Shown here in pieces: positions 2,256 through 34,450 of a stretch of DNA of 38,612 nt. The notes under the pieces were generated by a model that was not told the origin of the DNA, ran no database searches, and worked only from the letters and a program-made list of their open reading frames with translations. The position numbers were made by a program, and so were the translations under genes. The DNA is from Akkermansiaceae bacterium (GTDB lineage: Bacteria > Verrucomicrobiota > Verrucomicrobiia > Verrucomicrobiales > Akkermansiaceae), in assembly GCA_903878115.1 (NCBI GenBank), contig CAIRGO010000226.1, positions 1 to 38,612 on the forward strand, in the 5' to 3' direction. Numbering within the stretch: the first letter of the stretch is position 1; each line of letters starts with the position of its first letter.

Positions 2256-2321
2256 ATCCTCAATTCTTGCCCTACAGACCAGTGAAAACAACCATCCTCG
2301 CTCTCCTCGTGATTAGCCTCG
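2256..2321 (+). repeat. 5' leader/signal-peptide repeat, copy A
   Basis: This 66-bp stretch matches 12361-12426 with about 9 differences and its first 40 bp match 7805-7844. It spans the last 26 bases of the 5' leader (ATCCTCAAT...CACAGA-like) and the first codons of the exported protein (MKTTILALL). Similarity across non-coding and coding parts alike points to duplication of a whole expression cassette rather than convergence of signal peptides. Confidence 0.6.
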
Positions 2322-2896: not shown

Positions 2897-2959
2897 TTCC
2901 ATTTCAAAATGATCTGGTTGGCTAACAATTTTCATGACAGGCATCGGTTTCAGAAACGA

Positions 2960-4453: not shown

Positions 4454-4475
4454 ATCCATTTCCCCACATTATAGA

Positions 4476-12290: not shown

Positions 12291-12318
12291 TTGAAAGAAC
12301 GGCCTAGAGAGCCACGTT
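12291..12318 (+). promoter_or_regulatory. Promoter-like element, copy B (TTGAAA-N16-CACGTT)
   Basis: TTGAAA at 12291-12296 after GCCAAAAAAC, a 16-base spacer, CACGTT at 12313-12318. The run AGAGAGCCACGTTGT matches copy A almost exactly (GAGAGCCACGTTGT there). It lies 68 bp upstream of the PSD1 start, the same distance as copy A to YceI, and is followed by the second leader repeat. Confidence 0.5.
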
Positions 12319-12360
12319 GTGCTGGAGTGCTATATCCAAGGAAGAAATACCTTTTCATCG

Positions 12361-12426
12361 ATCCTCAATCATGGTCCCACAGACCAATGAAAACAACCAT
12401 CCTCGCCCTCCTCGCGATTAGTCTCG
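12361..12426 (+). repeat. 5' leader/signal-peptide repeat, copy B
   Basis: Matches 2256-2321 with about 9 differences in 66 bp, from ATCCTCAAT through ATGAAAACAACCATCCTCGC and several further codons. Both encode MKTTILALL[A/V]ISL. After this point the two proteins are unrelated. Confidence 0.6.
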
Positions 12427-17673: not shown

Positions 17674-20217
17674 CTAACAAGTGGAATCCGTCACGGCATC
17701 GATGCGTGTGACAATTCCCCGCGCGCCATCGATACGCACGATTTCGCCATTTTTCAATTGAGACAAGCAACTGCGCACCGACATCACAGCGGGGATGCGC
17801 ATTTCGCGGGCGGTCACTGCTCCGTGAGAAAGCGGGCCACCGCTTTCAGTGATCACGCCACTGGCCGCATAAAACAATGGTGTCCACGCAGGATTGGTCG
17901 TGCGCGCCACCAAAATCGCACCGTGCGGGAAGCTTGCAAAGTCTTGTGGCGAATAGACAAGACACACGGGTCCTTGGGCGATCCCCGGGCTGCCAGGAGA
18001 CCCAGTGAGTTCCGCACCAGCGACGAGATCTTGAGCCGCACTTTCCGCATTCGGTTCCCAGTTCGGTGTTTGATTCACTGCTGCACACCATGACTGTTTG
18101 CGCTCGCGTATCGTCACGGAAAATTTCTTCCACTCACTGCTGTCATTGTGGGCAATCGCCTGTTCGATCTCTGTTTCGTGGGCGAAAAATATATCTAACG
18201 AATCTTCCAGAACATCGCGCAAATGCAATCGCTCGCCGAGTTTTAACAAGCCTTTACGCATCGGCAGCGCCAAACGTGTGGTCTGGTAATGTTCGAGGTC
18301 GTCCAAACTGGTATAAACTCGTGCCAGTCGAATGACTTCATGCATGAAAAAATGCAGTTCCTCGGGGATTCGTTGAAATACCTGAAACTCCGCCGATTGC
18401 GAACGAATCTTCAACTCGCGTTCGCGTTGCGATGGCGTGATTTCGCTCGAGGCATCGAGGATCAATCGAATCTGATCCAAGACAATCCATGGCACGCTGA
18501 TCCAGGTCGGATGATAGGGATCGAAGTCAGTTTCGCGATGACCATGATCACGTAGGAAACGTATCAATCGTTGATGAAAAACATGGTGTTCTTTTTCTAA
18601 CAAACCTGAACTCCACAATGCATGGCTTCCGGCTTCCACACGCAGGCGCTGCTCGAGCAATGGCTCCTGATGCACGAGTTGCGCCAATTCAAACAACTCT
18701 TTGTTGATGGCGCCCGTTTTTGTTTCGCAATAGGCTAACAAATCACCCATCAACTTTGCCGCTTGCTCTGCTCCCAAGAATTCGCGCAACAGGAAATGCA
18801 ACAGTTTGTAAAGCACACCTTGTGTGATCGAAATGGCGATGTTGGGCAGGAAATAATCCGAACCATGTTGTTGTACCTCTTGCACAAAAGCCCACAGTTC
18901 GCTGAGAGATTTTTGATCTAACGTTTCTGCCATGAATTCGCCAATGCGTATCAAATAAAAATCGAGATCGCGCAACCACTGCACAGGCAGGCTTTGCACC
19001 CAACTGTATTCTTCGCGCAACTGCGGAATCAAAGCCGGCAAGTCGTTCAAGGATCGTAAGGTGAACGGCATGCGTTTGGCATAAAGATCGACAGCGTTTT
19101 GATTGCCATAAATGTAGTGGTCGTGCATGCCAAACCATTCTCCGGAAAAAGGAGGAAATCCCATCAAATGGAACGAATGATCCATCGAACGCTTGAAGCC
19201 TTTTTTCACGAAGTCCCAGGTCAAGGGAGTGATTGCATTCGGAAATCTTTCCGCTGATTCATCGCGCGTCCAATGCGGCGGAATGGTGGTGATGGCGCGC
19301 GATTGCAACAGTTGTAAGGAGTCTCCACAAAATCCCCACTCGATGTCTTGAGGGAAGCGATACCACGCTTCTACGCGACGCAACAACTCGGTGATTTGCG
19401 TGAGCTGCGCATCCGAGAGCGACGGTTGACTGCTCTGTTCTCCTGCTAACGATTGCAGTTCGACACCACCATCCTCAAGGCAGACGGTGCGCACGGATTT
19501 TTGTGCAATTTGGCGCGAGACAATCTTACCCGTCGCTTTTTCCACGGCCCAGTCATCGACGTCGCACTCGCCACTGACCACTGATTCTCCCAGTCCGAGA
19601 TTTGCTTCAATCAGAGCCACATTCATGTCGCCCGAAATGGGATTGATGCTAAACGCTACGCCCGCCACATCACAGCGCACCATTTGTTGCACCACCACGG
19701 CCATGTTCGCGGCACAGGGATCAAAGCCCTGACGACTGCGATACGAAATCGTGCGGTCGTGCCACACCGACAAGTAACAATCGCGGATTGCCGTGACGAT
19801 TTGTTCCTCGCCGCGGCAATTCAAAAACGTATCATGCTGTCCAGCAAAAGCTGACTGCGCTAGATCTTCCATCGTCGATGAGGAACGCACGGCAAAACAG
19901 GTATGAGCATCGAACAGCGCTAACTGCGAGCGAATGTCCTGCACTAACGATTCGGGCAAAGGAATCTCGCGCATGCGGTCGCGCAATTTCTCGGCCGCTC
20001 CCACCAACGCAGCGGGGTCATCGAAAGGCAATTGCAGCACGTATTCTTGCCAACTAGGAAAGCCATCGATCCACGCGCGATAGGCATCGGCGACGATAAA
20101 AAATCCCGACGGCACGGGAAAATCGCCGCTGGTGAGAGAGGCGAGATTGGCGCCTTTACCGCCCGTGTATTCGGCGCGTAAGGCGAGAGCATCAGTGAAG
20201 GCCAGCGTGTAGTTCAT
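17674..20217 (-). CDS. PEP-synthase/rifampicin-phosphotransferase-like enzyme
   Basis: 847 residues. Residues about 8-320 form the PPDK-type ATP-binding domain: GGKGANLASLTSGDFPVPSG, FAVRSSSTMEDLAQSAFAGQ, VVQQMVRCDVAGVAFSINP, EANLGLGESVVSGE. Residues 720-847 hold the mobile phosphohistidine domain: TNPAWTPLFYAASGVITESG then GPLSHGAVTARE, catalytic H798, and a typical end (KNGEIVRIDGARGIVTRI). There is no PEP-binding TIM barrel. The middle (about 330-710) is helical and unassigned. This ATP domain/acceptor domain/His domain order and length match rifampicin phosphotransferase, so the middle domain probably binds an unknown acceptor, to which ATP's beta-phosphate is transferred. ATG at 20217 gives a 26-base overlap with the PAP2 gene; an upstream start at 20277 would only add sequence antagonistic to the normal family N-terminus. 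Confidence 0.82.
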   Translation of the reverse strand: MNYTLAFTDALALRAEYTGGKGANLASLTSGDFPVPSGFFIVADAYRAWIDGFPSWQEYVLQLPFDDPAALVGAAEKLRDRMREIPLPESLVQDIRSQLALFDAHTCFAVRSSSTMEDLAQSAFAGQHDTFLNCRGEEQIVTAIRDCYLSVWHDRTISYRSRQGFDPCAANMAVVVQQMVRCDVAGVAFSINPISGDMNVALIEANLGLGESVVSGECDVDDWAVEKATGKIVSRQIAQKSVRTVCLEDGGVELQSLAGEQSSQPSLSDAQLTQITELLRRVEAWYRFPQDIEWGFCGDSLQLLQSRAITTIPPHWTRDESAERFPNAITPLTWDFVKKGFKRSMDHSFHLMGFPPFSGEWFGMHDHYIYGNQNAVDLYAKRMPFTLRSLNDLPALIPQLREEYSWVQSLPVQWLRDLDFYLIRIGEFMAETLDQKSLSELWAFVQEVQQHGSDYFLPNIAISITQGVLYKLLHFLLREFLGAEQAAKLMGDLLAYCETKTGAINKELFELAQLVHQEPLLEQRLRVEAGSHALWSSGLLEKEHHVFHQRLIRFLRDHGHRETDFDPYHPTWISVPWIVLDQIRLILDASSEITPSQRERELKIRSQSAEFQVFQRIPEELHFFMHEVIRLARVYTSLDDLEHYQTTRLALPMRKGLLKLGERLHLRDVLEDSLDIFFAHETEIEQAIAHNDSSEWKKFSVTIRERKQSWCAAVNQTPNWEPNAESAAQDLVAGAELTGSPGSPGIAQGPVCLVYSPQDFASFPHGAILVARTTNPAWTPLFYAASGVITESGGPLSHGAVTAREMRIPAVMSVRSCLSQLKNGEIVRIDGARGIVTRIDAVTDSTC

Positions 20218-21049
20218 GATTTTTGATAGATGGGAAAGTGAGGCGCAAACAAAAACTGCCGAGTAACATACCGGCAATCACATCGACGCCGTAGTGATAG
20301 CGTAGATAAAGCGTGGCGAGAAACAAACCACAGGCGGGCAATAGGCAGCACCAGAATACCAGACGTTTTTGCCGCCACCAGTAGCCGAGGAAAAACCATG
20401 TAATCGCGCTGTGTAAACTCGGAAAGACATCCACATGATTGCTGCCCTGCGCGACCAAGCCAGCATTGACACGGGTGAAAAATCCCATTTCTTGCAAGTC
20501 AGGAAACATCTCTGGCCACGCGAGGTGAGGGCCTACCGCAGGAAGCAAGCTGTAACCAAAAAAACCAATCGCATAGAGCGAGATCAACCCACGAAATAAT
20601 GCTGTTCCGCCTCCTGCACCTTGCCAAATTGCCACCACAAATAATGCCAATACCGCTAAGAAAAATAGCAGATAACAGAACGATAGAAATTCTGTTAGCC
20701 ACGGCTGCGTGAAAGGAATCAAGCTCTGCGCCGGTGTGCGACCAAAGATTTTCTCGTCCCATGCCAGCAAAGTTTCGTCCCATGATCGATAGCCGATAAG
20801 ATTCATGGTTTTGCCCAATTGTGCGTAGACGATATTGATCAAAATTGGATACCACAACAAACGCAAACGTTCGCTCCAAGGTTGAGTCGAGCCAAAGACT
20901 GCGATCGCCAAACAAATTGCGGCAAGTCCTAAATAGTATGTCATTTCCTCATAGGCACCGGCGAGAAGCAATCGCAGCGCGAGACTGCCTAACAACAAAA
21001 GACATAGGCTTTCGTGGAGACGCAGTGACTGATAAAATTTCCGATTCAT
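20192..21049 (-). CDS. PAP2-superfamily membrane protein (AUR1/inositolphosphotransferase-like)
   Basis: 285 residues with about six membrane helices. The PAP2 active-site motifs are present: the FPSLHSAITWFFLGYW segment (catalytic His) and YLRYHYGVDVIAG (second His and Asp). The loop before the core, IGYRSWDETLLAWDEKIFG, and the preceding helix pattern resemble the AUR1/PAP2_3 branch, which moves phospho-head-groups between lipids or dephosphorylates lipids at the outer membrane face. ATG at 21049 overlaps the acyltransferase stop (ATGA). The gene ends 26 bases inside the PEP-type gene. Tight packing implies joint expression and a shared lipid pathway (inference). The acceptor is not predictable. 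Confidence 0.82.
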   Translation of the reverse strand: MNRKFYQSLRLHESLCLLLLGSLALRLLLAGAYEEMTYYLGLAAICLAIAVFGSTQPWSERLRLLWYPILINIVYAQLGKTMNLIGYRSWDETLLAWDEKIFGRTPAQSLIPFTQPWLTEFLSFCYLLFFLAVLALFVVAIWQGAGGGTALFRGLISLYAIGFFGYSLLPAVGPHLAWPEMFPDLQEMGFFTRVNAGLVAQGSNHVDVFPSLHSAITWFFLGYWWRQKRLVFWCCLLPACGLFLATLYLRYHYGVDVIAGMLLGSFCLRLTFPSIKNHELHAGLH

Positions 21050-22242
21050 GATGTCAGTGAATGCAAAACTAACGCATGCAATTTTTGTGCTGCCTCGCGT
21101 AAATCGCGATGGAACAAACCATTCGCCGCGACGACTAACGTTTTTTTGCAGCGATACCACAACAAAATTGTTAGCGCGCTGCTACACCATGCGCCGCAGA
21201 GTAGAAGCCACGAGCCATTCCAAGCAAGTAAGATCAATAGCAGCAGGTTCCACAACAAAGCGATCGGCATGCCCGTGAGAATCCTCCATAGCGCGATCAC
21301 ATTAGTATCATCGGACAACGTTTTTCCCGCGATCGCCGCCACGCTCAGAGGCAGGGCTTGCACGATTACGCCCGGCAGAATGAACAGAAACATCAGCGCA
21401 CCAGCCAAAACATACAACCAAGCATGGCGCAAGGGAAACAACGGCACACCCTGATGCAGGAATAAACTTCGACCGCAGGAAGTTTTCTCCCATGCGTCCC
21501 AACCTTGATGTAACTCAGCGGGAATCCCGCGCGCCAATTGCTGCAACACCGTCGCATACGAATGACTCGTGCCCAATGTCGCCATGTAGGCAAAACGCTC
21601 GGCAATCTGTTGCGTTGCGGCATCTGGGAAATTAGCGCCCACTTGTTCCAGAGCAATGGTGAATTCTTTGCGGATAGAACCTAACGAAGCGGTGGCATCT
21701 AACGAAATCGGCGAACCGATGACAATTTCCACCCGTGAGCGAAAGGCCCACGCTCGTTCGTAATGAATGCCGCAGGGCACCACGCATAAGTCATCGCGTT
21801 GGGATCGATACTGCGACGCAATGCGCGCCGCACCACTGCGAAAGGACAAGTGCGCAGGACCGAGTTTGCTAGTGCCTTCAGGAAAAATTCCCAAACAAGC
21901 GCCTTGCTTTAATACTGTCACGCATTGCTCGATCACAGCGAGATTTTCGCTTGCGTCGGCACCATCATCACTGCGGGCGATTTCCAAACCATTGAAAAAA
22001 ATCCGTCCCATCAATGACTTTCGTAATGTTGCCTTCAGTGTGTAACAAATCTGCGGCCACACGGCGCGATAGACAAAACCATCGACTCCGCCATTGCGAT
22101 GCAATAGCAACAATAGCACTGGCCCGTGCGACGGTAAATGCTCGCGACCATGAACTGTCACGCGACTATAATACAATGAGCGAATCAAGGCGTGAAACCC
22201 CGCGTGCCAGGTGCTCTTGCGAATAACAATTGCCTCGCTCAT
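21046..22242 (-). CDS. PlsC-like glycerolipid/lysophospholipid acyltransferase
   Basis: 398 residues. The acyltransferase core lies at about residues 10-220: LLLLLHRNGGVDGFVYR holds the catalytic His/Asp in an H-x5-D spacing as in the 'NHPNSxxDP' subgroup, and GIFPEGTSKLGPAHLSFRSG carries the FPEG-S phosphate-binding motif. After a helical part there are membrane helices from about residue 270 (WLYVLAGALMFLFILPGVIV, LLWNLLLLILLAWNGSWLLL). It would transfer an acyl group to a lyso-glycerolipid or similar at the inner membrane. First gene of the overlapping three-gene set, preceded by a strong promoter-like sequence 8 bases from the ATG, so its mRNA may be leaderless. Confidence 0.85.
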   Translation of the reverse strand: MSEAIVIRKSTWHAGFHALIRSLYYSRVTVHGREHLPSHGPVLLLLLHRNGGVDGFVYRAVWPQICYTLKATLRKSLMGRIFFNGLEIARSDDGADASENLAVIEQCVTVLKQGACLGIFPEGTSKLGPAHLSFRSGAARIASQYRSQRDDLCVVPCGIHYERAWAFRSRVEIVIGSPISLDATASLGSIRKEFTIALEQVGANFPDAATQQIAERFAYMATLGTSHSYATVLQQLARGIPAELHQGWDAWEKTSCGRSLFLHQGVPLFPLRHAWLYVLAGALMFLFILPGVIVQALPLSVAAIAGKTLSDDTNVIALWRILTGMPIALLWNLLLLILLAWNGSWLLLCGAWCSSALTILLWYRCKKTLVVAANGLFHRDLREAAQKLHALVLHSLTS

Positions 22243-22250
22243 TAATTATA

Positions 22251-22279
22251 CTTATAGAGTCGTGCTGATACCATGACAA
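22251..22279 (-). promoter_or_regulatory. Sigma-70-like promoter of the acyltransferase operon, near-leaderless
   Basis: On the minus strand, TTGTCA (22274-22279), a 17-base spacer, and TATAAG (22251-22256). Only 8 bases separate the -10 from the ATG at 22242, so initiation 6-8 bases downstream would start at or next to the A of ATG. No ribosome binding site is present, consistent with a leaderless mRNA. Confidence 0.55.
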
Positions 22280-22337
22280 CTTAATTCTAAAGCATGGCTG
22301 AAAGTGTTAGATCGATCTGATCTTTGCGGTCGCTCGT

Positions 22338-25300
22338 TTACTTCACGCGACTATTTTGACGGCGTATGATGATCGCGGTGATGATCGGGCACATTAGGAT
22401 GAACATTAATAAGACAAAGCCATTTCGCCGGTCGGTTTCCATCCAGGTTGTTTTGGCTAACGGTTGTTTTAAGGCGAGATAGATGGCGCGATTTTTTACG
22501 TTCCGATAGTCAGTGCGGTGTGTCTCTGCTTCGCGGGTCATTAGGTCGATGCGCGCGTTAACGAAGTAATCAGCAATGGGGCGCGCCTCCTTGTCGTCAT
22601 CGGGCCACACTTTATACGCAGCACATTGATCGCGTGTGCCGTTTCTGGCGAGGGTTGTGAGTTCGCTAGCGATGCGCTCGCCTTCGGTGGCTGATGTGGC
22701 ACCACTGCCTAGTAGTTTTGTGAGAGAAAGTTTTAACGTTTCCAATCGCTCAGCGGTTTCTTTTGTGAGCTCGCGCGTGTTGGATAGATTTTCCAAACGA
22801 CGTTGAATTCGTAATCGTTCTTTTTCAAATGGATTCCGTGTGGCTTGGGCGACGACCATGGATTCATAGGCATAGCGTAGCGGCATGATTTGTGCTGGCA
22901 CGGGAGTGCCTCCGCCATCTCGATTGATGCCGAGGTCGTTGAATAAGGCACGATTCATTTCTTTAAAAGGAACCAATGCACCAGCTAAGAGCATTTGTGG
23001 GACTAACAATAATGGCACCGCGGTGAGAGCGGCGCGTTCTGTTTTTACGATCGATGAAATGAACAATGCGAGCGATGTGCCAGTCCATGCGGTAAGCGTC
23101 ATCCATAGCCAATGTTCTAAGAACATCCCGCGAATCTCTAACAATGGATGTGCCACCGCGATGTAAGCGAGACATTGAAGGGCTCCGACAATCGCTAGCG
23201 CAAGAAACTTTGCCGTGACATACATTCCCGCTCCCGGGTAGCAATTGCGCTCGCGGCGAATGATCGGTCGGTCGCGTAAAATCTCGGTAGCGGAATTCGT
23301 TAGGCCGAGAAACATCGCCACGGTGACACTGAGAAACAAGTAGGCGGGAATATGCAGCGCCGTGGAAAAGTCGTATTTCCCTTCAGGTGACGCCCTCAGC
23401 GTATAGCCAATCAGTGCGGCGAGTAGTGGTGCCTCTAACAATGTGGAATACAAGGTGCCACGCGTGCGAAATTTTGAGAGCAATGAGCGTTGAAAGTGTG
23501 TGGCAAAGAGAGCGAAGATTTCACGGATGCGACGAATTTTTTTGGCGGGGAATAGGCTGTCGCTGATGAGATTTTGTGAGCTCGATAGCCGAGATGGTGG
23601 GGGCTCTGTATTTTTATGCAACGACTGCATCAGTGCTTCACTCTCGAAACGTTCTTGCCAAAATGCTGGCGGGAAGCGCCGAGCTGCGAGAGGGTTCTGG
23701 CCACCACCGATGGTGTTGAGTGGCGTTTCTAACACATCGAAAACAAAGTCGGCACCGAGCGGGCTTTGTGCGAGAATTGATGGATGGGCGATGCCAAGTT
23801 CTTGGCACGCTAGACGGAAATATTCCATCATTTCGTGAGGCGCGCCAAAGTAGGCAAGGCGACCGCCGGAATCTAACAGCAATACTTTGTCAAAAAGTCG
23901 CAATACCTGGGCGCCGGGGCGATGCAGGGAGGCGATGACAATTTTATCACGAGCCATGGCGCGCAGTGTTTCGGCAACATGCTCGGAATCTTTTGAGGAA
24001 AGTCCAGATATGGGTTCATCGAAAAGAAACACTTCCGCAGAGCTCAGCAAATCTAAGCCGAGATTCAATCGAGAGCGCTCGCCGCCAGATAATGTTTTTT
24101 CCCCGGCAGCACCCACTCGCCGATGGGACAGCGCCTGCAAACCTAGTTCTGCTAATACGATGTCGATGCGCCGTTCGCGGTCGGCGGCTGATTGTGATGG
24201 GCGACGAATGGAAGCAGCGTGGCGCAGATGCTCGCGCACGGTGAGTTGCGGGAATAATGCTTCCTCTTGCGCCATCCGCGCGATGAAGCGAGTCAGTTCG
24301 GCTCGATTATGATACAACGATGTCCCGTTGAGTTTCACTTGCCCGCGTGTTGGTTCTAACTGTCCAGAAAGTGCCGCCAATAGTGTTGATTTTCCTGAGC
24401 CACTGGGGCCGATGATGCACATCATTTCACCGCGTCGCACGGTGAAACTGAGATTATCCAATGCTCTGACATCAGCAGAAAAATCGTGGATCAAATCGTC
24501 CACGATGAGCGTTTCGATGACATGTCTTTCTTCATCGATCAGATGCTCTGAAAATCGACAACGCAGGGCTTGCCGATTGGACAAACGAATCAGTCCACCT
24601 TCCTCCAGTCGGGTGACTCCGCGCACCACTTGCCCCTCGATCATCACCTGTCCATCACTGGCTATCACTTCCACATAGCCGGCACCTTCTTCGGGAGCGT
24701 AGCGCATCGAGAGCACCACTTTTGGCGCGAGACCAGCAGAGATGAGGAGATCACCTTTGCCCAGAGTAGCGGGATCGTTCGAGACGCGAAATTGCTTGCG
24801 CTGATTATCAATGCGAAATCTTCCTCCTGCTTCGAGCGCCCGTTTGCGCAGAGATTCCAGATCCACGATGGCACCATCAGGATCTGTCAAGCGGGTATGA
24901 TGATCACAAAAAACAGGAACCCCAGGGATGAGCTGATCGTGTTTTCCGACTTGCAAATCACACTCGCGATGTGCCTCGACTTCCACTTTAAGACCGAAGC
25001 GGATCACCGCCAGACTATGGCGACTTTTCGCGCGTTCTACCGTGATGCCAGCATCGCTCGCTACAATGTGAATCCTTGGCGTAATGCCGGTTTTTTTCAC
25101 ATTGAGAAAATGTATCAAGTCAGCATGCATCAATGTCCACCCTGGTACGGCGAGCGCTTGTCGTTCACGCATCCGCAAAAATGTTCCGCTTTCTAATGAG
25201 CGCCCGCGCACCCATAGCGGCTGCACGCCAGTGTTTCGCACCATGACTAAGTCACCCACACGATACACTCGGAACTCGCGTTCGCCAGCTTGTGGTGGCA

Positions 25301-25826
25301 GCATCACATCGGCTGTGGTGGTCACGCCAAACGTCACCCGCTCAAAACTGCGCACAGTATTGTTATGCTCACCTTCTGCCATCTCATGCAAAATTTCTTG
25401 CCCGTAATCTGGTCGCCCCAATCGTCGCATGAACACATCAAAGGTAGTGCGTGATCGCTCCGATCTGCCCGCCGCATCGACAAGTGTCCACAGTTGAAAC
25501 CCGAGAGCTAATTTCCCGGTGTCGTCCAGACGTTCATGCAGCTCGGCTGCGATGTTTTGCAGTGATTGTGGTGATCTTACCGAGCGTTGCAAACGTCGCG
25601 CTAGCCAACCATGGTCCACCTCTGGATAGGCTGCGCGCAGCAAATCTAACACCAGATCAGCTTCGTCGTTGTCCAGTTGTTGATCGACGACCGCGAAGGC
25701 GGCAAAAGCATCGATGAGTTGCCCAAGCAGAGCATCCGTGCCAGGACGCAGAAAACGCAAGCGCCCCACACCTGGGATCAGCCGAAGAAAGGAAAAAATT
25801 TTCCCTTTGATCACAGATTCGCTCAT
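22338..25826 (-). CDS. ABCG-like ABC exporter with TerB-like and FHA-like N-terminal regions
   Basis: 1162 residues. About 15-150 is a TerB-like helical domain (FAAFAVVDQQLDNDEADLVL). About 170-270 and 330-430 are beta-rich regions resembling FHA-type domains (FRVSNDPATLGKGDLLISAG, VMIEGQVVRGVTRLEEGGLI). The ATPase at about 440-690 has Walker A GPSGSGKST near 472, signature LSGGERSRLNLGLDLL, Walker B VFLFDEPISGLSS, and a C-terminal 'AYFGAPHEMMEYF' typical of the ABCG (White) group. The ABC2-type permease (about 800-1160) has six probable helices and a long helical loop (about 1000-1080). ATG at 25826 is preferred over TTG at 25856. An exporter controlled by FHA-type phosphopeptide binding is plausible. 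Substrate unknown; it lies 95 bp upstream of the lipid operon. Confidence 0.85.
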   Translation of the reverse strand: MSESVIKGKIFSFLRLIPGVGRLRFLRPGTDALLGQLIDAFAAFAVVDQQLDNDEADLVLDLLRAAYPEVDHGWLARRLQRSVRSPQSLQNIAAELHERLDDTGKLALGFQLWTLVDAAGRSERSRTTFDVFMRRLGRPDYGQEILHEMAEGEHNNTVRSFERVTFGVTTTADVMLPPQAGEREFRVYRVGDLVMVRNTGVQPLWVRGRSLESGTFLRMRERQALAVPGWTLMHADLIHFLNVKKTGITPRIHIVASDAGITVERAKSRHSLAVIRFGLKVEVEAHRECDLQVGKHDQLIPGVPVFCDHHTRLTDPDGAIVDLESLRKRALEAGGRFRIDNQRKQFRVSNDPATLGKGDLLISAGLAPKVVLSMRYAPEEGAGYVEVIASDGQVMIEGQVVRGVTRLEEGGLIRLSNRQALRCRFSEHLIDEERHVIETLIVDDLIHDFSADVRALDNLSFTVRRGEMMCIIGPSGSGKSTLLAALSGQLEPTRGQVKLNGTSLYHNRAELTRFIARMAQEEALFPQLTVREHLRHAASIRRPSQSAADRERRIDIVLAELGLQALSHRRVGAAGEKTLSGGERSRLNLGLDLLSSAEVFLFDEPISGLSSKDSEHVAETLRAMARDKIVIASLHRPGAQVLRLFDKVLLLDSGGRLAYFGAPHEMMEYFRLACQELGIAHPSILAQSPLGADFVFDVLETPLNTIGGGQNPLAARRFPPAFWQERFESEALMQSLHKNTEPPPSRLSSSQNLISDSLFPAKKIRRIREIFALFATHFQRSLLSKFRTRGTLYSTLLEAPLLAALIGYTLRASPEGKYDFSTALHIPAYLFLSVTVAMFLGLTNSATEILRDRPIIRRERNCYPGAGMYVTAKFLALAIVGALQCLAYIAVAHPLLEIRGMFLEHWLWMTLTAWTGTSLALFISSIVKTERAALTAVPLLLVPQMLLAGALVPFKEMNRALFNDLGINRDGGGTPVPAQIMPLRYAYESMVVAQATRNPFEKERLRIQRRLENLSNTRELTKETAERLETLKLSLTKLLGSGATSATEGERIASELTTLARNGTRDQCAAYKVWPDDDKEARPIADYFVNARIDLMTREAETHRTDYRNVKNRAIYLALKQPLAKTTWMETDRRNGFVLLMFILMCPIITAIIIRRQNSRVK

Positions 25827-26248
25827 GCGCTTTTGTTGCTCCACAGCCACCGCCAACAGACTGTCACAGTTTCAATATGGCTAGCAAGCGTGGATTTCTA
25901 TCGCGCTACATCATTCGCTTTTGCCATCATTTCTCTGGCGAAAGGAAGAATCTATCTCGCAGATACGAATTGATTCCCGGATGTAAACCGCCTGAATCAT
26001 ACATCACTCCGAATTGCCCCGAAACAACACGTGCTGAAGCAGAGTTATGGCGGTCAATTCTAACTACGCCAAGGTGAGCGGAAATACCTCGATCACATTA
26101 CACCACAGACCGAGGAGATGCCGCCGGCCGATGGAGTTGAAGTAGTTAGAGGAAAACTCTTTTTCATGCCTTTTCTCAGAGAAAATTAGAGCGATGGGAA
26201 ATCGTTGATGACTACAACACCGTTGTAATCCTGAGCATGGTTAAGGTC
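25827..26248. other. Divergent intergenic region, no confident gene
   Basis: Separates the ABC gene from the giant protease. The plus strand has a 66-codon open frame (25877-26077) with a weakly protein-like stretch (NCPETTRAEAELWRSILTTP), but no start context or recognisable family; a decayed gene fragment is possible. TTTCAA at 25870-25875 could be a minus-strand -35 (TTGAAA), but no convincing -10 follows at 16-18 bases. Confidence 0.35.
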
Positions 26249-26275
26249 TTGTGATTGCGCCGAACGAGTTACAAT
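26249..26275 (+). promoter_or_regulatory. Possible promoter of the giant protease gene
   Basis: TTGTGA (26249-26254), a 15-base spacer and TACAAT (26270-26275). The -10 is good; the spacer is short. Initiation near 26282 would leave a leader of about 20 bases before ATG 26303. Confidence 0.3.
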
Positions 26276-26302
26276 ATGATTGACTTTAGTTGCTAAATTT
26301 TC

Positions 26303-29300
26303 ATGATCTGCTTGCATTTTATGAGAATCCGTAAGCACATTGCATTCATTTCATTCCTCTGCTTTCTGCTAGCTTTGGTGTCCGTGCTATTTTTTTACAA
26401 TGCAGAGAAAAGTTTCACTGGAAGCACGCAGGAAACGGCTGCACACAGTGCGCGCGATGTTTCTAGTGCCGCGGACACTGCTGAAGATCCATTTTCCCAA
26501 GCTGATAAAGCACCAGTAGCCTCTATTCCGTTGGTCGCTCCTGCGCTTACAACGCCCACTGCTGCGGTGCCTGATAGCAGTCATCCACTGCTTAGCGCCA
26601 TCAAGCGCGTGATTTCTGAGCAATGGATCGATACCCCACAGAAGCTCTCCAATCGCAGGCGAGTGCGTATCGTTGATGCGAATTTCAAATACTCGCACCT
26701 GAGGTTAGAGGAAGAGGTGAGCACTGATCCCGCCACTGGTATGCAGAAAGTCACCTTGCTCCGTGCTTCCGTAGCTGATCACGTCATGATTGGTCTCAAG
26801 CCAGGCGTTGATTTTCGTCGCGCTGCGGCAGCGATCACTGAGAAGGGCTTCAGTATCCGCGCCATCGAAGAGGGTTCTTATCTATTAGCTGAATTACCTG
26901 AATTTTCAGCAGCTGAGGACCAGTCTGCGGCGGCTGAAGACCTTGCTGCACTGGAAGAGTTCATCAACCACGCCGAGCCAGATTACCTTGTTTTTCCTTG
27001 CCTCGCTCCTAACGATCCCGCCTACACACAGGGAAAAATGTGGGGACTTCACAATCCCGGCACTGCTGCCGGCACCAAGGCGGATGCGGATATCGATGCA
27101 CCCGAGGCGTGGGATATCCGCAGCGACGCTTCCTCGATCGTTGTTGCCGTAACTGATACTGGTATTCAATACAATCACGAGGATTTGGCTCCGAATATGT
27201 GGGTTCATCCTACCAACGGAAGTTATGGTTTTGATGCTTATGATAACGACAACGATCCCATGGATGTGGGTGGTCATGGGACGCATTGTGCCGGTACTAT
27301 TGGCGGGCGTGGAAACAATGGCGTCGGTCTCACTGGTGTGGCATGGCAGGTAAAGCTCATGGGCGTGCGCTTCTTAGGTCCTAACGGAGGTAGCACCTCT
27401 GACTCGATTCGGGTTGTTAACTATGCCCGGCAAAATGGGGCGAAAGTCATCAGCGCCAGTTGGGGCGGAGGCGGCTACAGTCAGAGTCTTTACGATGCAC
27501 TAAAAGCCTGCGCCGATGCTGGCATTGTCTTCGTCGCAGCAGCGGGTAATTCCTCCGCAAACAATGATGCTACTCCTCATTATCCGTCCAGTTACAATCT
27601 CAGTAATATTGTGTCGGTTGCTTCTACTACTTCCGCAGATGCTCTTTCTTCCTTTTCCTGTTATGGAAAAAACTCAGTGGATATTGCTGCGCCTGGCAGT
27701 GGGATTTGGTCGTCCTATATTGGCTCTAACAATCAATACACTTTCTTAAATGGCACCTCCATGGCTACGCCTCACGTCAGTGGGGCACTCGCTCTGGCGA
27801 TGGCGCAGTTCCCGTCAGAAAGTCTCACTGTGCTGATTCGCCGACTTTATTCGTCGGTTGATAAAATTACTGCTCTCACTAACAAATGCAGTACTGGTGG
27901 TCGGCTGAATGTTGCCAAGTTGTTAGGCGGCACTTCTCCCCCACCAGGGTTGGATATTTTTGCCAATGCTCAACGCTTCGAGGGCTACTCTGGTGTTTGG
28001 TACGGGAACAATGAAGGCGTAGCGCGAGATCCTAACGAAATCATCATACCCGCTCCTACTCCCGGCACTAAAGGTTTTTGGTTTGCTTTCCGTACGCCAC
28101 ACAGTGGTCTTGTTTCGCTGGATTTCACTTCAGATGTTCCCTTATACTCCGTTGCGATTTACGAAGGTTCTGAGTTACAGAGTCTTAAAACACTTCAGAC
28201 CAGCGATCCTTATGCTGGCTACAACCGCAAGCTTACTTTCACTTCCAAACCTGATACCGAGTACCGCGTGCTGCTCGTATCGAACTACGCTCAATTACAA
28301 CTTTTTTTACTGCAATATTCGTTGACTCCACCCAATGATATGTTTGCCGACGCTACGTTGGTTAGTGGTGATCTTTTTTCTGTGAATGGCAATAATCGCA
28401 GTGCCACTGCTGAGTTGTTTGAAAGCAAAAAAAGCCACGCCCGCTCAGGCCAAGGTAAATCCGTCTGGTGGCGTTGGACAGCACCCGTCGATATGAATGT
28501 CACGTTCAATACACGTGGTAGCGCTTTCGATACTGCTCTCGCCGTTTACACAGGGAGTGATGCAAACAGTCTTGTAGAGGTGGCCTCGAACGATGACCGA
28601 AGTGCTTTAGACTGGACCAGTCAGGTGTTGTTCCCCGCCATCGCAGGTACCACATACCACATTGCCGTTGATAGTTTCCGCGCCGATGCGGCAGGGGATA
28701 TCACGCTGAACGGCTTCCGCAGCGGCACACTCACCATCCTGCGTAAGCCCGTGCCCGTGGCAGTAGAACTCGGCAAACGCGCCGTTTTCGAGGTATCCGC
28801 CCTGAGCAATAGCGATCTCACCTATCAATGGTTCCTCAACGGCCAAGCGATCCCCGGCCAGACCTCCTCCAACATCGTCATCGATCCCGTCCGCACCGTG
28901 GATCTTGGCAATTACAGCGTCCAGATCTGGACAACCGAAAACAGCGTGACCAGCAATACCGCCGCGCTTACCGAAAAACAAATCGCTCCGAAACTCACCT
29001 GGTCCTCCGGCAATCAGGCGGTGGCGGCAGGCACAGCGCTTTCCTTATCTGCCAATTTCTCCGGTTCCACGCCGATGACTTACGCATGGACAAAAAACGG
29101 ACAACCGTATGCGGGTGCCAACACAACAATTACCATCTTATCACCAACCACTGCCGACAGTGGTGCTTATCGCCTAACCGCGACAAACAGTGCGGGTAGT
29201 GCAACGGCGGATTTCACTCTATCCGTAGTGGCTTCGCCATGGGATCGCTGGGAATGGCGCCGCCCCGGCATCCCCAACGCCGCCATCACCGACATCAAGG

Positions 29301-32300
29301 TTTATAACGGCGAGGCTTTCGCTGTATCTGCGACCACCCTGCTCCGCTCCACTGACGGAGTGAACTGGACGAAAAGCGTTTTCCCGAATGGATTTTCGGG
29401 TAATTCAATTTCCAAGGCAGGCACCAGATTCCTCTGCATCGGTTTAAACACAGCAGGTCAATTCCGCGTCGCCACCTCTACTGACAATGCCGTCTCCTGG
29501 ACGATCTCCGCGCCCACCGGCTTCGCCATTACGTCGTCCCCAGAAAAGTCCTCGCTGCACGGACACAACGGGGCATTCATTGCCTACAATACAGTCTCCA
29601 ATCAATATGGCCAAGACTTCCTGCGCTCGACAGACGGCATCACCTGGACCCGCCTTACCGCGACAAATCTCGACAACGCCACGGTGAACCTAACTGGGAA
29701 GGGCCGCATCGCCTCCAACGGAAATACGCTCATCGTAGCCTCCGGCACGAACAACGGCAGCGGACGTATGCGTTATTTCAAATCCACGAACGGAACCACT
29801 TGGCAGGAATTCGAAACGAACAGCCCTGAAACCACAAGCGGCGGATACTCCGCCACCGCCTTTCACGATGGCAGCAAATTCTACCTCTTTGAGACCTACG
29901 CGATGTATTCCTCACCCGACGGGACCAACTGGCTCCGCCACATCGCCTTGAGCAACGGCTTCGATTACAATATCCACATGGCATCCAACGGTCAATCAGT
30001 GGTCGGATTCGCACCCGAATACCAGTTCATTAAGCATTTCAGCGACCCGAACGACATCAAATTCCGCAAAGTCCTGCCAGCCAACTCACATAATTTCACC
30101 GCTGCTGCGAGCTTTGGGAGCAAAATTCTTTATGGCACCGACAAAGGACTCCTGGCCGTCGTAAACGGGCCGTTTGACGTGGCAATCCCGCGCGAGAAAT
30201 CCTCGATTCTCCGGTCCGTAGAATTCACTGAAAGTCTCTTCATTGCACGCACGGAGAATCCATCCTACATAAGCAATTCCGTGCTCGACCAACTTTCCGG
30301 AGACGGTATCACATGGAAACCGAACACCCCGTTGGACACGCCCAACGTTATGCTAACTGGCTCCGCTTCCGGAAGGCACTTCGGACTGAAAGATTTTTCT
30401 ACAGCGATCTATTCCGGCCATAACCCCTTCGATGTTCGTCTTAACACCAGCGATACCATCGGACTAGCACCTAACATCGCCTTCATCGCTCAATTGCCAA
30501 ACGGTAATGCGCTAGCTGTGAGCACGCCAGCGACGGGAGCATCTTCGCTACGTGCTCGTGCGAACGGCTCCACCACATGGTCAGCAGCGACTCTGCCCAC
30601 GGGAATGACCATCAATTCCTCCTCAAAATTTGCCTCGCTGGGCAACCGCTGGTTCTCCAATGCCGGCTCATCCTCCGCATTACTGATTCAGACCTCTACG
30701 AATGGAACATCGTGGACATCCACAGGGCTGACGGGCAGTACACCCCACTTCGCAACCTTTGGCGGGAAATCCTGGTGTTTTTTCCGAAACACATCATCGG
30801 CGATACGCGCCGCAGACAGCACAAACGATACTTCATGGACCAGCCAACCCACCACCGGCCTTCCCAGCAGCGGGTTTGTCATCAAACGTGTTTTTACCTT
30901 CGGCACTTTTCTCGTGATGCTGGGCGGAGATGAGAACCTCTATTATTCGGATAACGCCACCACCTGGCTGCGCGGTTTCACGCCAGGCAAGGTCGTCGAT
31001 ATCGCCGTAGGCAACGGCCAACTCGTCGCGATCATGAAAAATGGCGGGATTATCCAAACGGGAACGCCCCATGCCGGAGGCAGTGCTCCGCTCGTCTCCA
31101 TCGTATCACCACAGACAGCAAGCACCCACCTGATCGGCTCACGGGTCACCATCGAGGGCACTATATCCGATCCCGAAGATGGCTCTGCCTCCTACGATTG
31201 CTACTTGGATTCCCAAATTGTCGCATCTGGCACGGGCAATTCCTTCCGTTTCCACGTCAACATCACAGATCCTAAGGGACACACCGTCACCGTCCGCGCC
31301 CGTGACTCTCAAGGACTGAGACAGATGGCCGCGATCCGCCTCAAGGTGGCCGCCGCCGAGCCGGACAATCTGCTTGGCAGTACCCAAGGTGGAGCTATCG
31401 CCGCTAATCAGTCATTGACGTTTGACGGCGTCTTTTATGCCGCCGGAAGCCGCTCGATACACCGCTCGCTTGATGGCAAAAACTGGGAAAAAATACCTAT
31501 TCCCAGTTTCGCGAATTCAATCTACGGCATGGCCGCCGGAAACGGGGCTTTGGTGATCCAATTCGACAATGGCGGCATCATGTCCACCCGCGACGGGGTG
31601 AACTGGACCCACTTCCAGCCAAACCTCACCGACTACTGGGTGCGAGAGCGCGTTCATTTCTCCTCTGGTGTATTTATTGCGGCCTACCAGACGCAAGGAT
31701 CTACAAGCGGCAGCGTGATGACCTCTACTGACGGACTCATTTGGGAAACCGGAGTCGATAGCGAAGATGGTTATCTTGCTTGGACGGCGAGCCCGGGTGA
31801 CGGCACTGTCATTGGTGCCGCATCGTATAAAACCGGTGGCTACCGGACCGTGGATAACGGCTACAACTGGGTACCCATCCCGGCCCTTAGGGATATATCG
31901 GACCATTCCGCAGGCATTTTCGCGGATGGTCGCTACGTGGTTGTGCAATCGAGTTGGTCCACCCCAAAGGTTTACCTATCAACTGATTCTGAAGCCGACG
32001 ACTGGCAGGAGCATCCACTACCTCCAAGTATCACATACTTACCACTTCTGATGAAGCTAAATGGCGATTATTTCCTAGGAACCTATGAATCTTATTCTCA
32101 TTTTTCCAAAGACGCCGTGACATGGCAACCGTTGTCCCGTCCGATCAGCAAGCGCAAGATGATTCACTCACGTGGCCTCTTTGTGGGCGAGGCTGCCGCA
32201 GGCGGCATAGTAACCAGCCGTGACGGACAGACATGGAATGTGATTCAGGGCTTGCCTTCCCGCGTTTCCCAAATTCTCGCGAACGAGGACTTCTACCTTC

Positions 32301-34450
32301 TGATCGGAAACGACGGAGCAGTATGGAGATCTCTCGACGGCAGTGCATGGGAAAAGACTCTCGCAGGTGGCGCTTCCACCGACTTCGACAGCAGGGTCGG
32401 GCAGAGTATGGCTGAACTGAACGGTAGGATTGTCGCCGCGGGCAACAGGATTCTCGTCTCCAGTGCGGACAACGGTCGCACATGGACGAACACCACCCTC
32501 AACGGGATGCCCCCTGTCGCGGATCGGATGTTCGCAAAAGTCGTATCCAGTGGATCGGAGATCCTCGCAATGGAAGGGACCTTCTCCACCAACAGTATCC
32601 TTCACCGGACTACCGACGGCGCGGCGTTCACAAGTGTGACAGGTCTGCCCGCAAAAAACTGGGCAGATTTTGCGTGGAACGGCTCCGAGTGGATGCTCAT
32701 CGCCACAGACGGCAGTCTTTTCCGCTCCACAAACGGGGGCATCACTTGGACGCAGCTTGTCGTCACAGGTATTGCGCGCGGTGCGGCGGTCGCGTGGTTC
32801 AACAACCGCTGGGTTGTCATCGGAGCCGCGCTATCTGGGTTCAACACGCCCTACGTCGGCTTCAGCCTCGGGGCGGGCGACGTCCTGCAGAACCACGGCA
32901 ACATAGGATTCTTTAACTCGAATATGCCTCTGCGCACGCTGATCGGCCATGGTAAGATGCTGATTTGGACGCAAGGGGAGATTACCTTCGTGACTAGCGA
33001 TGGCACAGCATGGGCGACCTCAAACCTCAGTGCCGGGTCAGGAAATCACGACTACGACATTTATTATACGCCCGACGGTTTCACCGCGTTCAAAGGCTCT
33101 ACGGTAGCCTTTTATCCGGTAGAGGCTTGGACCGCTGGTCCGACCGGATTGACATGGTCTTCCACCCCATCGCCTTTCAACAGTATCCAGTATGCCGCGA
33201 ACCTTGGCGAACGACTGTTCCTGTTCACCAACGGCACGATCTCCGAATTTCATGACAAAGACCTCGCCCTCAACTTGCCCTCCATGACCGCAATATCCCT
33301 CGGCGTGGGCGACAACATTTCTACGAACGTGAGCATCCGCAACTTCGGCCGCGCGATTCCGCCAAGCGGAGTCTGGAAAGTCACCGCGTGGCTTGCGAAA
33401 AACCGATTCTTCGGAGACACCAAGAATATCCTGTTAGGCACCTTCGATATCACCGCAGCCATGCCCGCGCCCGGAGCCTCGCAGAACTATCCGGTATCCT
33501 TCACTTTGCCCAACGAGATTCTCACTGGAGCCAATTTCCTGATCATGCAGCTCACGGGGCCCTCTGAGATTCGTGAAACGAACACGGCCAACAACACCGT
33601 CATCAGCGATACCGCTGCGATCACGATTCCGGAGTGGAGTTTCAACGTGCTGACGAATGGGAATGGGCAGGTGAATCGGGATTTTGCGGCGATGCGGTAT
33701 CCGCATAAGGCGCAGGTGTCTCTTACGGCCAGCGCGGGTAAGGGGGCGACTTTTACCGGGTGGAGTGGCGATGGCTATAGCCCGAACAACCAGATCACCA
33801 TTCTCATGGATGCGAATAAAACGCTGGCGGCGAATTTCTCGAACCGTACCACCTTGCAAGTCTTCACTCGAGGTTTGGGCTCCATAAGCGGCCTTGCGGA
33901 TCAAGGTAGTTATTCGGTTGGTAATACTGCGAATCTTACTGCTGTTCCGGCTGCAGGATGGCAATTTTCACACTGGTCGGGCGATGCCACGTCCACACAG
34001 GTTGCTCATTCCTTGGTTATGAGTGAGTCGAAGGTCGTCACTGCAAATTTCATCCTGCCAGTGGCTACATGGAAGAGCAATCTCTTCAGTCCAGCTCAGC
34101 TTGCAGATGAAGCCGTCTCTGGCGATAATCAAGATCCAGATGGTGATGGTTTAAAAAACTGGCAGGAATATTTGCATGCATCCCATCCGCTTGATTCTCT
34201 CTCCCGAGGAATGACCCCTATCACCCTTGAGGGCGGATTTATGCGCTGTCTCTATACGCGCAATCTTGGTGCAGTGAACGGCGGCACGCTTTTTAGCCAA
34301 GCCTCGCGCGATCTCGTAGGGTGGAATTCGCCTGGTCTTCAAGAGCGCATTATTTCCTCGGATCTTGGGGTCGAAACGATCGAAGTTCGTTTTCCTACCG
34401 CAGCGCCTTGTGGTTACTTGCGATTGAAATACCACGCCACCGCCCCCTGA
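26303..34450 (+). CDS. Giant secreted S8 subtilase with PPC, Ig-like, Asp-box repeat and InlB-type domains
   Basis: 2715 residues. An N-terminal signal or anchor (about 7-32; a second ATG at 26321 is equally plausible) and a propeptide-like region (about 130-235) precede the S8 protease: D285 (VAVTDTGIQYNHED), H325 (GGHGTHCAG), oxyanion N416 (AAAGNSS), S486 (NGTSMATPHVSG). Then two PPC-like domains (about 550-800), two Ig-like domains (about 810-975), an array of S-x-D-G-x-x-W repeats (about 976-1590), a bridging Ig-like domain (about 1594-1685), a second array (about 1688-2320), a CARDB-like domain (about 2323-2442), two InlB/divergent repeat domains (about 2446-2582) and a calcium-type DPDGDGL tail. 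All catalytic residues are intact. Codon style changes near 28640 and 33640. Likely a surface adhesin-protease. Confidence 0.9.
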   Translation: MICLHFMRIRKHIAFISFLCFLLALVSVLFFYNAEKSFTGSTQETAAHSARDVSSAADTAEDPFSQADKAPVASIPLVAPALTTPTAAVPDSSHPLLSAIKRVISEQWIDTPQKLSNRRRVRIVDANFKYSHLRLEEEVSTDPATGMQKVTLLRASVADHVMIGLKPGVDFRRAAAAITEKGFSIRAIEEGSYLLAELPEFSAAEDQSAAAEDLAALEEFINHAEPDYLVFPCLAPNDPAYTQGKMWGLHNPGTAAGTKADADIDAPEAWDIRSDASSIVVAVTDTGIQYNHEDLAPNMWVHPTNGSYGFDAYDNDNDPMDVGGHGTHCAGTIGGRGNNGVGLTGVAWQVKLMGVRFLGPNGGSTSDSIRVVNYARQNGAKVISASWGGGGYSQSLYDALKACADAGIVFVAAAGNSSANNDATPHYPSSYNLSNIVSVASTTSADALSSFSCYGKNSVDIAAPGSGIWSSYIGSNNQYTFLNGTSMATPHVSGALALAMAQFPSESLTVLIRRLYSSVDKITALTNKCSTGGRLNVAKLLGGTSPPPGLDIFANAQRFEGYSGVWYGNNEGVARDPNEIIIPAPTPGTKGFWFAFRTPHSGLVSLDFTSDVPLYSVAIYEGSELQSLKTLQTSDPYAGYNRKLTFTSKPDTEYRVLLVSNYAQLQLFLLQYSLTPPNDMFADATLVSGDLFSVNGNNRSATAELFESKKSHARSGQGKSVWWRWTAPVDMNVTFNTRGSAFDTALAVYTGSDANSLVEVASNDDRSALDWTSQVLFPAIAGTTYHIAVDSFRADAAGDITLNGFRSGTLTILRKPVPVAVELGKRAVFEVSALSNSDLTYQWFLNGQAIPGQTSSNIVIDPVRTVDLGNYSVQIWTTENSVTSNTAALTEKQIAPKLTWSSGNQAVAAGTALSLSANFSGSTPMTYAWTKNGQPYAGANTTITILSPTTADSGAYRLTATNSAGSATADFTLSVVASPWDRWEWRRPGIPNAAITDIKVYNGEAFAVSATTLLRSTDGVNWTKSVFPNGFSGNSISKAGTRFLCIGLNTAGQFRVATSTDNAVSWTISAPTGFAITSSPEKSSLHGHNGAFIAYNTVSNQYGQDFLRSTDGITWTRLTATNLDNATVNLTGKGRIASNGNTLIVASGTNNGSGRMRYFKSTNGTTWQEFETNSPETTSGGYSATAFHDGSKFYLFETYAMYSSPDGTNWLRHIALSNGFDYNIHMASNGQSVVGFAPEYQFIKHFSDPNDIKFRKVLPANSHNFTAAASFGSKILYGTDKGLLAVVNGPFDVAIPREKSSILRSVEFTESLFIARTENPSYISNSVLDQLSGDGITWKPNTPLDTPNVMLTGSASGRHFGLKDFSTAIYSGHNPFDVRLNTSDTIGLAPNIAFIAQLPNGNALAVSTPATGASSLRARANGSTTWSAATLPTGMTINSSSKFASLGNRWFSNAGSSSALLIQTSTNGTSWTSTGLTGSTPHFATFGGKSWCFFRNTSSAIRAADSTNDTSWTSQPTTGLPSSGFVIKRVFTFGTFLVMLGGDENLYYSDNATTWLRGFTPGKVVDIAVGNGQLVAIMKNGGIIQTGTPHAGGSAPLVSIVSPQTASTHLIGSRVTIEGTISDPEDGSASYDCYLDSQIVASGTGNSFRFHVNITDPKGHTVTVRARDSQGLRQMAAIRLKVAAAEPDNLLGSTQGGAIAANQSLTFDGVFYAAGSRSIHRSLDGKNWEKIPIPSFANSIYGMAAGNGALVIQFDNGGIMSTRDGVNWTHFQPNLTDYWVRERVHFSSGVFIAAYQTQGSTSGSVMTSTDGLIWETGVDSEDGYLAWTASPGDGTVIGAASYKTGGYRTVDNGYNWVPIPALRDISDHSAGIFADGRYVVVQSSWSTPKVYLSTDSEADDWQEHPLPPSITYLPLLMKLNGDYFLGTYESYSHFSKDAVTWQPLSRPISKRKMIHSRGLFVGEAAAGGIVTSRDGQTWNVIQGLPSRVSQILANEDFYLLIGNDGAVWRSLDGSAWEKTLAGGASTDFDSRVGQSMAELNGRIVAAGNRILVSSADNGRTWTNTTLNGMPPVADRMFAKVVSSGSEILAMEGTFSTNSILHRTTDGAAFTSVTGLPAKNWADFAWNGSEWMLIATDGSLFRSTNGGITWTQLVVTGIARGAAVAWFNNRWVVIGAALSGFNTPYVGFSLGAGDVLQNHGNIGFFNSNMPLRTLIGHGKMLIWTQGEITFVTSDGTAWATSNLSAGSGNHDYDIYYTPDGFTAFKGSTVAFYPVEAWTAGPTGLTWSSTPSPFNSIQYAANLGERLFLFTNGTISEFHDKDLALNLPSMTAISLGVGDNISTNVSIRNFGRAIPPSGVWKVTAWLAKNRFFGDTKNILLGTFDITAAMPAPGASQNYPVSFTLPNEILTGANFLIMQLTGPSEIRETNTANNTVISDTAAITIPEWSFNVLTNGNGQVNRDFAAMRYPHKAQVSLTASAGKGATFTGWSGDGYSPNNQITILMDANKTLAANFSNRTTLQVFTRGLGSISGLADQGSYSVGNTANLTAVPAAGWQFSHWSGDATSTQVAHSLVMSESKVVTANFILPVATWKSNLFSPAQLADEAVSGDNQDPDGDGLKNWQEYLHASHPLDSLSRGMTPITLEGGFMRCLYTRNLGAVNGGTLFSQASRDLVGWNSPGLQERIISSDLGVETIEVRFPTAAPCGYLRLKYHATAP
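29231..31070 (+). repeat. Protein-level repeat array 1 (about ten Asp-box-like units)
   Basis: Units carry a core S-x-D/N-G-x-x-W: RSTDGVNW, TSTDNAVSW, RSTDGITW, KSTNGTTW, SSPDGTNW, SGDGITW, NGSTTW, TSTNGTSW, DSTNDTSW, YSDNATTW. The spacing (mostly 45-75 residues) and the loop-like core fit BNR/Asp-box beta-propeller blades. The DNA of the units is not tandemly repeated, so the array is old. Confidence 0.7.
31366..33260 (+). repeat. Protein-level repeat array 2 (about thirteen Asp-box-like units)
   Basis: Units include RSLDGKNW, STRDGVNW, TSTDGLIW, RTVDNGYNW, STDSEADDW, SKDAVTW, TSRDGQTW, RSLDGSAW, SSADNGRTW, RTTDGAAF, RSTNGGITW, TSDGTAW and GPTGLTW. It is separated from array 1 by an Ig-like domain, suggesting two propellers or two pairs of propellers. 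Confidence 0.7.

Follow-up and report, generated by a model that had tools for sequence, protein, structure and literature searches.

Mosaic genes and recombining giant surface-protein genes are already known, and the interesting part of the case described here is recurrence at shared joints. Flagellin-type genes have conserved ends and an exchangeable middle. In Campylobacter, introgression has been reported to produce mosaic alleles by homologous recombination between related species (PMC3139442). The giant surface-protein genes of Apilactobacillus kunkeei encode very large extracellular proteins reported to be diversified by intragenic recombination tracts (PMC12863079), in an article whose main text holds neither 'codon usage' nor 'GC content'. 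More generally, a survey of domain transfer reports that within-gene recombination breakpoints are common across prokaryotes, with no preferential preservation of intact domain-coding regions (PMC2639706). Regarding Verrucomicrobiota, no report of the gene analyzed here or of its pattern was among the results listed by our literature searches.

The focal gene (26303-34450, forward strand) was found in the genome of an uncultured Akkermansiaceae bacterium, hereafter G000, the window being the whole stretch of 38,612 nucleotides that was analyzed. It consists of a single ORF encoding a giant S8 protease of 2,715 residues, which is predicted from its sequence to be secreted. Like flagellin-type genes, it combines conserved ends with a variable centre; unlike them, its middle is multi-domain, spans about 1,650 residues and is missing in some relatives. 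As in the Campylobacter alleles, a resident gene would have been replaced in part by the allele of a relative, the remainder being native; however, both parents are reported there as known and about 15% diverged (PMC3139442), whereas the silent sites of the focal gene are nearly saturated and no donor was found. The A. kunkeei genes are comparable in that very large, here putatively extracellular, proteins and intragenic recombination tracts are involved, and they differ from the focal gene in being described from population data with mapped tracts and in belonging to a beta-solenoid family (PMC12863079). In contrast to the survey, as far as its reported view of domains goes (PMC2639706), the right border of the focal module lies at a domain start and the left one near a domain start.

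All features of the gene lie on the forward strand. The native-style 5' flank (26480-28654, codons 60-784) comprises a propeptide region, the S8 subtilase and a PPC-like region. The Peptidase_S8 domain (PF00082; 27134-27826, codons 278-508) scores 191.1 bits in Pfam against a curated cut-off of 21.8, and the translation contains DTGIQ, GHGTHCAG and GTSMATPH, which we take to be the Asp, His and Ser catalytic motifs of an S8 subtilase. Deseasin-like proteases carry a C-terminal PKD domain; no PKD family was called in the focal protein by Pfam at E<=0.1. The closest solved relative of the catalytic domain is the S8 protease deseasin MCP-01 (PDB 3vv3, E 9.3e-74), no relation being shown for the remaining protein. 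The flank is followed by the foreign-style module (28655-33622, codons 785-2440), which contains two Ig domains, a beta-propeller A region (29255-31072, codons 985-1590; AlphaFold2 model and a Pfam match to DUF6242 at residues 1110-1210), a Big_7 domain (31088-31294, codons 1596-1664; Pfam), a beta-propeller B region (31373-33202, codons 1691-2300; model and weak match to YCF48-related proteins) and a CARDB-like part. Next come the first InlB B-repeat, which is also the right border tract (33623-33856, codons 2441-2518), and the native-style 3' flank, made of the second InlB B-repeat and the C-terminal tail (33857-34447, codons 2519-2715). Pfam calls two Ig-type stretches and two InlB B-repeats, the best at residues 2517-2583; PPC and CARDB, names given by the preliminary description, are absent from its calls at E<=0.1, and every NCBIfam match to the protein stays under its cut-off. 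AlphaFold2 predicted residues 665-1592 (nine-row alignment) as an all-beta chain with pLDDT 76 and pTM 0.63, in which the modelled Ig pair resembles the tandem Ig structures of titin and Robo (TM 0.57-0.64 by target). A second model, of residues 1590-2520 (seven rows; pLDDT 68, pTM 0.46), shows, like the non-Ig remainder of the first, a weak predicted likeness to multi-propeller proteins. Sequences 31-33% identical to the C-terminal tail (34058-34447) occur in further long frames of G000, on contigs C101 and C269, and this tail may represent a shared surface or sorting tail.

The preliminary description had contrasted T-ending flanks with a C-ending middle bordered at 28640 and 33640, and had noted a distinct G-ending style between 33640 and 33840. 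To express this contrast we used two ratios at third codon positions, CY = C/(C+T) and GR = G/(A+G), and all three statements hold. Indeed, CY is 0.43 in codons 60-784, 0.70 in codons 785-2445 and 0.43 again in codons 2513-2715, with GR at 0.57 in each of them, while codons 2446-2512 stand apart with CY 0.41 and GR 0.97; GC3 along the gene, which had been proposed as a check, is thus not flat. The best two-changepoint segment covers codons 766-2445 (CY 0.70 inside versus 0.43 outside) with a log-likelihood gain of 60.9, whereas the highest gain among 500 permutations, in which synonymous codons were shuffled within amino acids, is 12.7; this design rules out amino-acid composition as the cause of the switch. 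Of the 15 amino acids listed, 14 show a higher CY in the module, with His and Cys nearly equal, and only Tyr does not. The 95% interval of the left switch is 28559-28711 (codons 753-803) and that of the right one 33596-33661 (codons 2432-2453), both counted as the last codon before the switch and both in agreement with the borders first proposed. The match between switch and domain border is firm at the right end; at the left end, the best fit (codon 768) falls inside the PPC-like region, whose end at about codon 803 is reached by the upper end of the interval alone. Among the other sampled G000 genes of at least 700 codons, 3 of 42 exceed all 100 of their nulls, the highest gain, 35.3, belonging to a 2,794-codon gene on contig C137, so that the focal gene is the most extreme of the sampled large genes of this genome but not the sole one to shift. 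Genes in these samples are uncurated longest-ORF calls; of the first 20 G000 regions, three consisted entirely of N and yielded none. In the control list, some of the shifts within genes (G246 locus L230, G266 loci L218 and L231) look like artefacts of over-long ORF starts.

Compared with codon tables drawn from stretches of 16 genomes, G000 included (8 to 19 thousand codons for each congener), the flanks are native and the middle is foreign to the host genome. For the N flank and for the tail (codons 2519-2715), the own genome ranks first of 16; for the module it ranks 15th, the best fit being the congener G003 (lnL +111.8), and for the right border tract it is again 15th, with G009 as best fit. 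When this tract is counted with the 3' part (codons 2446-2715), the own genome ranks third. In a leave-one-out analysis of 195 G000 control genes, 160 rank their own genome first and five deviate per codon like the module. Elsewhere in the window, two blocks, 2267-7731 (YceI and efflux OEP/HlyD/MacB) and 12291-16747 (PSCyt1/PSD1 with a neighbour), have CY values of 0.70-0.85; as this is above the 95% point of sampled G000 genes (0.64), they look acquired.

Searches for relatives gave matches to the whole protein in 79 of 97 relatives, many of which concern the protease part or repeat domains, and matches to the module alone in 22 of the 386 genomes of the order. From the stretches read for most of these 22 genomes, nine full-length long-form genes were obtained in eight genomes (G000, G009, G020, G066, G325a, G325b, G266, G307 and G246), G066 belonging to another family than G000. 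Their common order of parts was judged by full-length alignment, without per-gene domain calls; G266 and G307 have about 350 extra residues in the propeller B region. G009 is 64% identical to G000 overall. Identity to G000 in the protease domain is 84% for G009, 72% for G020, 71% for G266, 61% for G307, 56% for G066, 55% for G325a and 40% for G325b, and in propeller A 57, 21, 28, 27, 20, 29 and 21%, respectively. Among the sampled genomes, which represent one genome per species, no donor allele was found, and the closest module interior is that of G009, at about 57% residue identity. Four partial or broken genes (G301, G370, G377 and G292) were left out of trees and scans; that of G370 (L162) runs over three reading frames and that of G301 (L165) over two, by decay or assembly error. 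In the congener G005, two 5' copies are present (loci L069 and L070, contigs C51 and C35), 94% identical over 755 bases, and both contigs end at the same identical stretch of 149 bases, which implies that paralogues or strain variants of the gene exist in the genus.

Both borders of the module are marked by short tracts shared with G009. A silent scan of G000 against G009, over 1,645 same-residue sites, gave two significant tracts only: codons 803-860 at the PPC/Ig1 junction (28709-28882; 41 of 52 same-residue codons identical, 4-fold identity 0.72) and codons 2423-2518 (59 of 80 identical). Each was equalled in one of 2000 permutations, against 1204 of 2000 for the next best. Elsewhere, 4-fold identity between the two genes is 0.35 in the N flank, 0.30 in the module interior and 0.37 in the tail (range 0.25-0.37), and most windows approach saturation at silent sites; some 60-codon windows off the tracts reach 0.5-0.6 (e.g., 2641-2700), non-significant by the scan. 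In two of six other pairs, the best tract was equalled in just 54 and 56 of 2000 permutations, and both of these tracts lie in the protease domain. The right tract is G-ending in G000 and G009 alike, with 90% nucleotide identity and a 4-fold identity of 0.61. In G000, 34 of the 35 purine-ending codons of codons 2441-2518, a patch whose edges were set by eye, end in G (W and M left out), and no such window arose in 2000 permutations; the G-ending fraction is 0.97 in the right tract of G000 versus 0.50-0.79 in the other seven long forms. Searched as DNA with slightly longer queries among 260 genomes of the family, the right tract was found in three (G000, G009 and G020), and the left tract gave a long match in G000 and G009 only, with matches of 31-62 bases in five more. 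At the residue level, G020 and G266 are 40-61% identical to G000 at the border tracts.

The preliminary description had suggested looking for orthologues lacking residues of about 785-2445, and such forms exist. At least two short forms were identified among the matches listed, and there may be others. G018, from the same family (1,026 aa), aligns with G000 residues 100-810 at 39% and then directly with residues 2518-2710 at 34%. Its joint at own residues 831/832 thus leaves out reference residues 811-2517, a gap lying exactly between the tracts, and Pfam calls in it an S8 domain and a single InlB repeat. In G070, from another family (1,172 aa), S8 and two Ig domains are followed by the tail from about residue 2604, the propellers, Big_7 and the InlB repeats being absent. 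These two forms imply that gain or loss of the unit at these joints has occurred in the family. Codon style, silent identity and the short-form joint, three separate readings, therefore point to the same two places.

Comparable codon switches were found in other members. In G020, codons 781-2400 have CY 0.48 versus 0.65 in the rest and a genome mean of 0.67, hence in the opposite direction to G000; its left interval (reference codons 764-820) overlaps that of G000 (753-803), while the right one (2460-2694) is ill-determined and falls just past that of G000 (2432-2453) without overlap. For this module the own genome ranks tenth of 16, a deficit matched by 3 of 72 control genes. In G066, the switch concerns codons 976-1560, about propeller A (CY 0.80 versus 0.55 in the rest), and the own genome ranks 11th of 16, as extreme a deficit being seen in 2 of 57 control genes. 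The G009 module is native-like, with its own genome ranking first of 16, and the scan detected in this gene a mild signal (codons 151-2415, CY 0.71 versus 0.54, gain 15.0 against a null maximum of 12.7). The remaining five of the nine members gave gains that some of their nulls reached (29 of 200 as high for G325a, 19 for G325b, 19 for G246, two for G307 and one for G266). The possibility that domain type dictates codon style was ruled out by the reversed direction in G020 and the native-like module of G009.

Phylogenies of the parts place limits on the origin of the module. Each of the six overlapping segments pairs G000 with G009 as sisters (bootstrap 98-100), which argues against a donor outside the G000/G009 group at this sampling; a congeneric donor, as suggested by the codon fit, would not show in these trees. 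In the module, G020 groups with G066 and G246 with full support, and its grouping with G000 and G009 is rejected (p-AU 0.0001), whereas a larger head tree places it with G000 and G009 (83/85). The flanks, however, do not reject the module grouping of G020 (p-AU 0.134 and 0.489; 0.206 for the head with 25 rows), and the conflict of G020 (S8 72% versus propeller A 21% identical to G000) was consequently dropped as proof. No tree conflict between parts reached significance, none being seen for G000, and the trees are compatible with exchange as well as with its absence. The preliminary description had named concordant phylogenies in orthologues of the same domain order, or flat GC3, as arguments against recombination: the same order of parts and the G000/G009 pairing were recovered throughout, but GC3 varies. 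In the head tree, which includes 15 other subtilases, the focal gene and its relatives form a group of their own (99/95), with G018 and then G070 branching just outside eight long forms (86/84 and 81/83, not starred). This branching order would fit a stepwise growth, from head and tail to the Ig domains and then the propellers, although losses may have occurred instead. G325b was left out of this tree, its placement being unsure, and of the AU tests because of its long branch.

The explanation we consider probable, although well short of certain, is a mosaic allele in which homologous sequence from a relative took the place of the resident middle, in frame. The ancestor of the long-form genes would have had the full layout, from protease head through tail; in the G000 lineage, the middle (codons of about 785-2440) would then have been swapped by homologous recombination for that of a relative's gene, the protease head and the C-terminal tail remaining resident. 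The donor was probably a congener with a genome richer in C-ending codons, as suggested by the codon fit of the module, best with G003. Crossovers may have occurred in or beside the two short tracts, at the PPC/Ig1 junction and in the first InlB repeat, which could have served as homology arms and might themselves have been exchanged with the G009 lineage. Recombination between paralogues would be an alternative route, as the two G005 copies illustrate. Of the replacement or insertion of a module of about 1,650 residues initially proposed, replacement is thus the better supported and fresh insertion fails. Indeed, a module newly inserted into a short protease gene in the G000 lineage, with the switch dating from the insertion, is highly improbable, even if the short forms G018 (810/2518) and G070 exist and branch just outside the eight long forms, as stepwise growth predicts. 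The layout is common to nine long forms in eight genomes, one of them, G066, from another family, so that the G000 switch is not the first insertion of the long form; moreover, G000/G009 silent sites are near saturation and the codon contrast is missing in G009, and any first insertion must hence be far older than this contrast.

The replacement must also be weighed against other readings. A chimeric assembly, joining two co-occurring relatives at conserved tracts so that the module is the other organism's copy, is unlikely, yet it is a real rival as G000 is a metagenome-type assembly in 331 contigs. An assembler would jump at short stretches that relatives have in common, which is what the borders are, and blocks 2267-7731 and 12291-16747 of the same contig likewise depart from the codon use of the genome. 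However, the assembler would have had to jump twice within 5 kb and end up back in the same organism, the genome contains no second close copy of the gene (next best 38% identity in an own-genome search), and the right tract has a third style, common to G009. In addition, comparable switches occur in G020 and G066, each on its own contig, and in the single-contig genome G246 a 2,939-codon ORF, cut by the edge of the sampled locus, shifts style more gradually. It is rather unlikely, too, that the parts of the gene simply evolved under different regimes, translation selection or a local mutation bias having shaped the middle. Genes with high CY and moderate GR do exist in G000, and 24 of them fit the module best of 11 tables, a test of high expression that is weak because this set was chosen by CY itself; an EF-Tu fragment (160 residues, by our own identification) has CY 0.68, and other giant genes shift style as well. 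Against this, the parts of a single gene share their expression, and in G000 it is the conserved catalytic part that has fewer C-ending codons, G020 showing the reverse; biased gene conversion should lift G and C alike, whereas GR is 0.57 in both parts, and the two silent-identity tracts at the borders would be left unexplained. Such tracts might instead be kept by selection at the nucleotide level, for instance as an RNA element, the codon switch being a separate event. The conservation of both residues and silent sites there between G000 and G009 speaks for this idea, but it is very unlikely given that G020 and G266 are just 40-61% residue-identical at the tracts and that the other seven long forms are far from the G-ending fraction of G000.

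Beyond the single replacement, it is conceivable, although we regard it as doubtful, that these genes form a standing exchange system in which a catalytic head and a surface tail are fixed and the binding middle can be acquired, lost or swapped between genera at the same pair of joints, the conserved anchor tracts being kept alike by each exchange. As for the replacement in the focal gene, its likely purpose would be to alter what a putatively secreted protease binds, with catalysis and attachment to the surface left as they were. Regarding a mobile carrier, viral contigs contained no confirmed relative (one pattern match), and 72,556 plasmids gave weak Thermus propeller matches only. If the mosaic reading is true, environmental Verrucomicrobiota alter the binding parts of their giant multi-domain exoenzymes through in-frame exchange at fixed joints, and the codon-style signature of the exchange can be read off one sequence alone. 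Applied to any genome, the same scan could list splices of this kind, and the focal gene would be a concrete case to set against the survey view that domains are not transfer units.

Two further observations concern related giant genes. G066 (L068) and G246 (L226), although from two different families, share 82% identity in the protease domain, and that of G246 is closer to G066 than to the other long forms compared, which suggests a possible whole-gene transfer between the two lineages. Finally, a 2,794-codon gene on contig C137 of G000 (19029-27410, loci L224 and L089) displays a sharp change of codon style near codon 1651, CY being mostly 0.6-0.86 upstream of the change and about 0.5 downstream, with a native-like end part.
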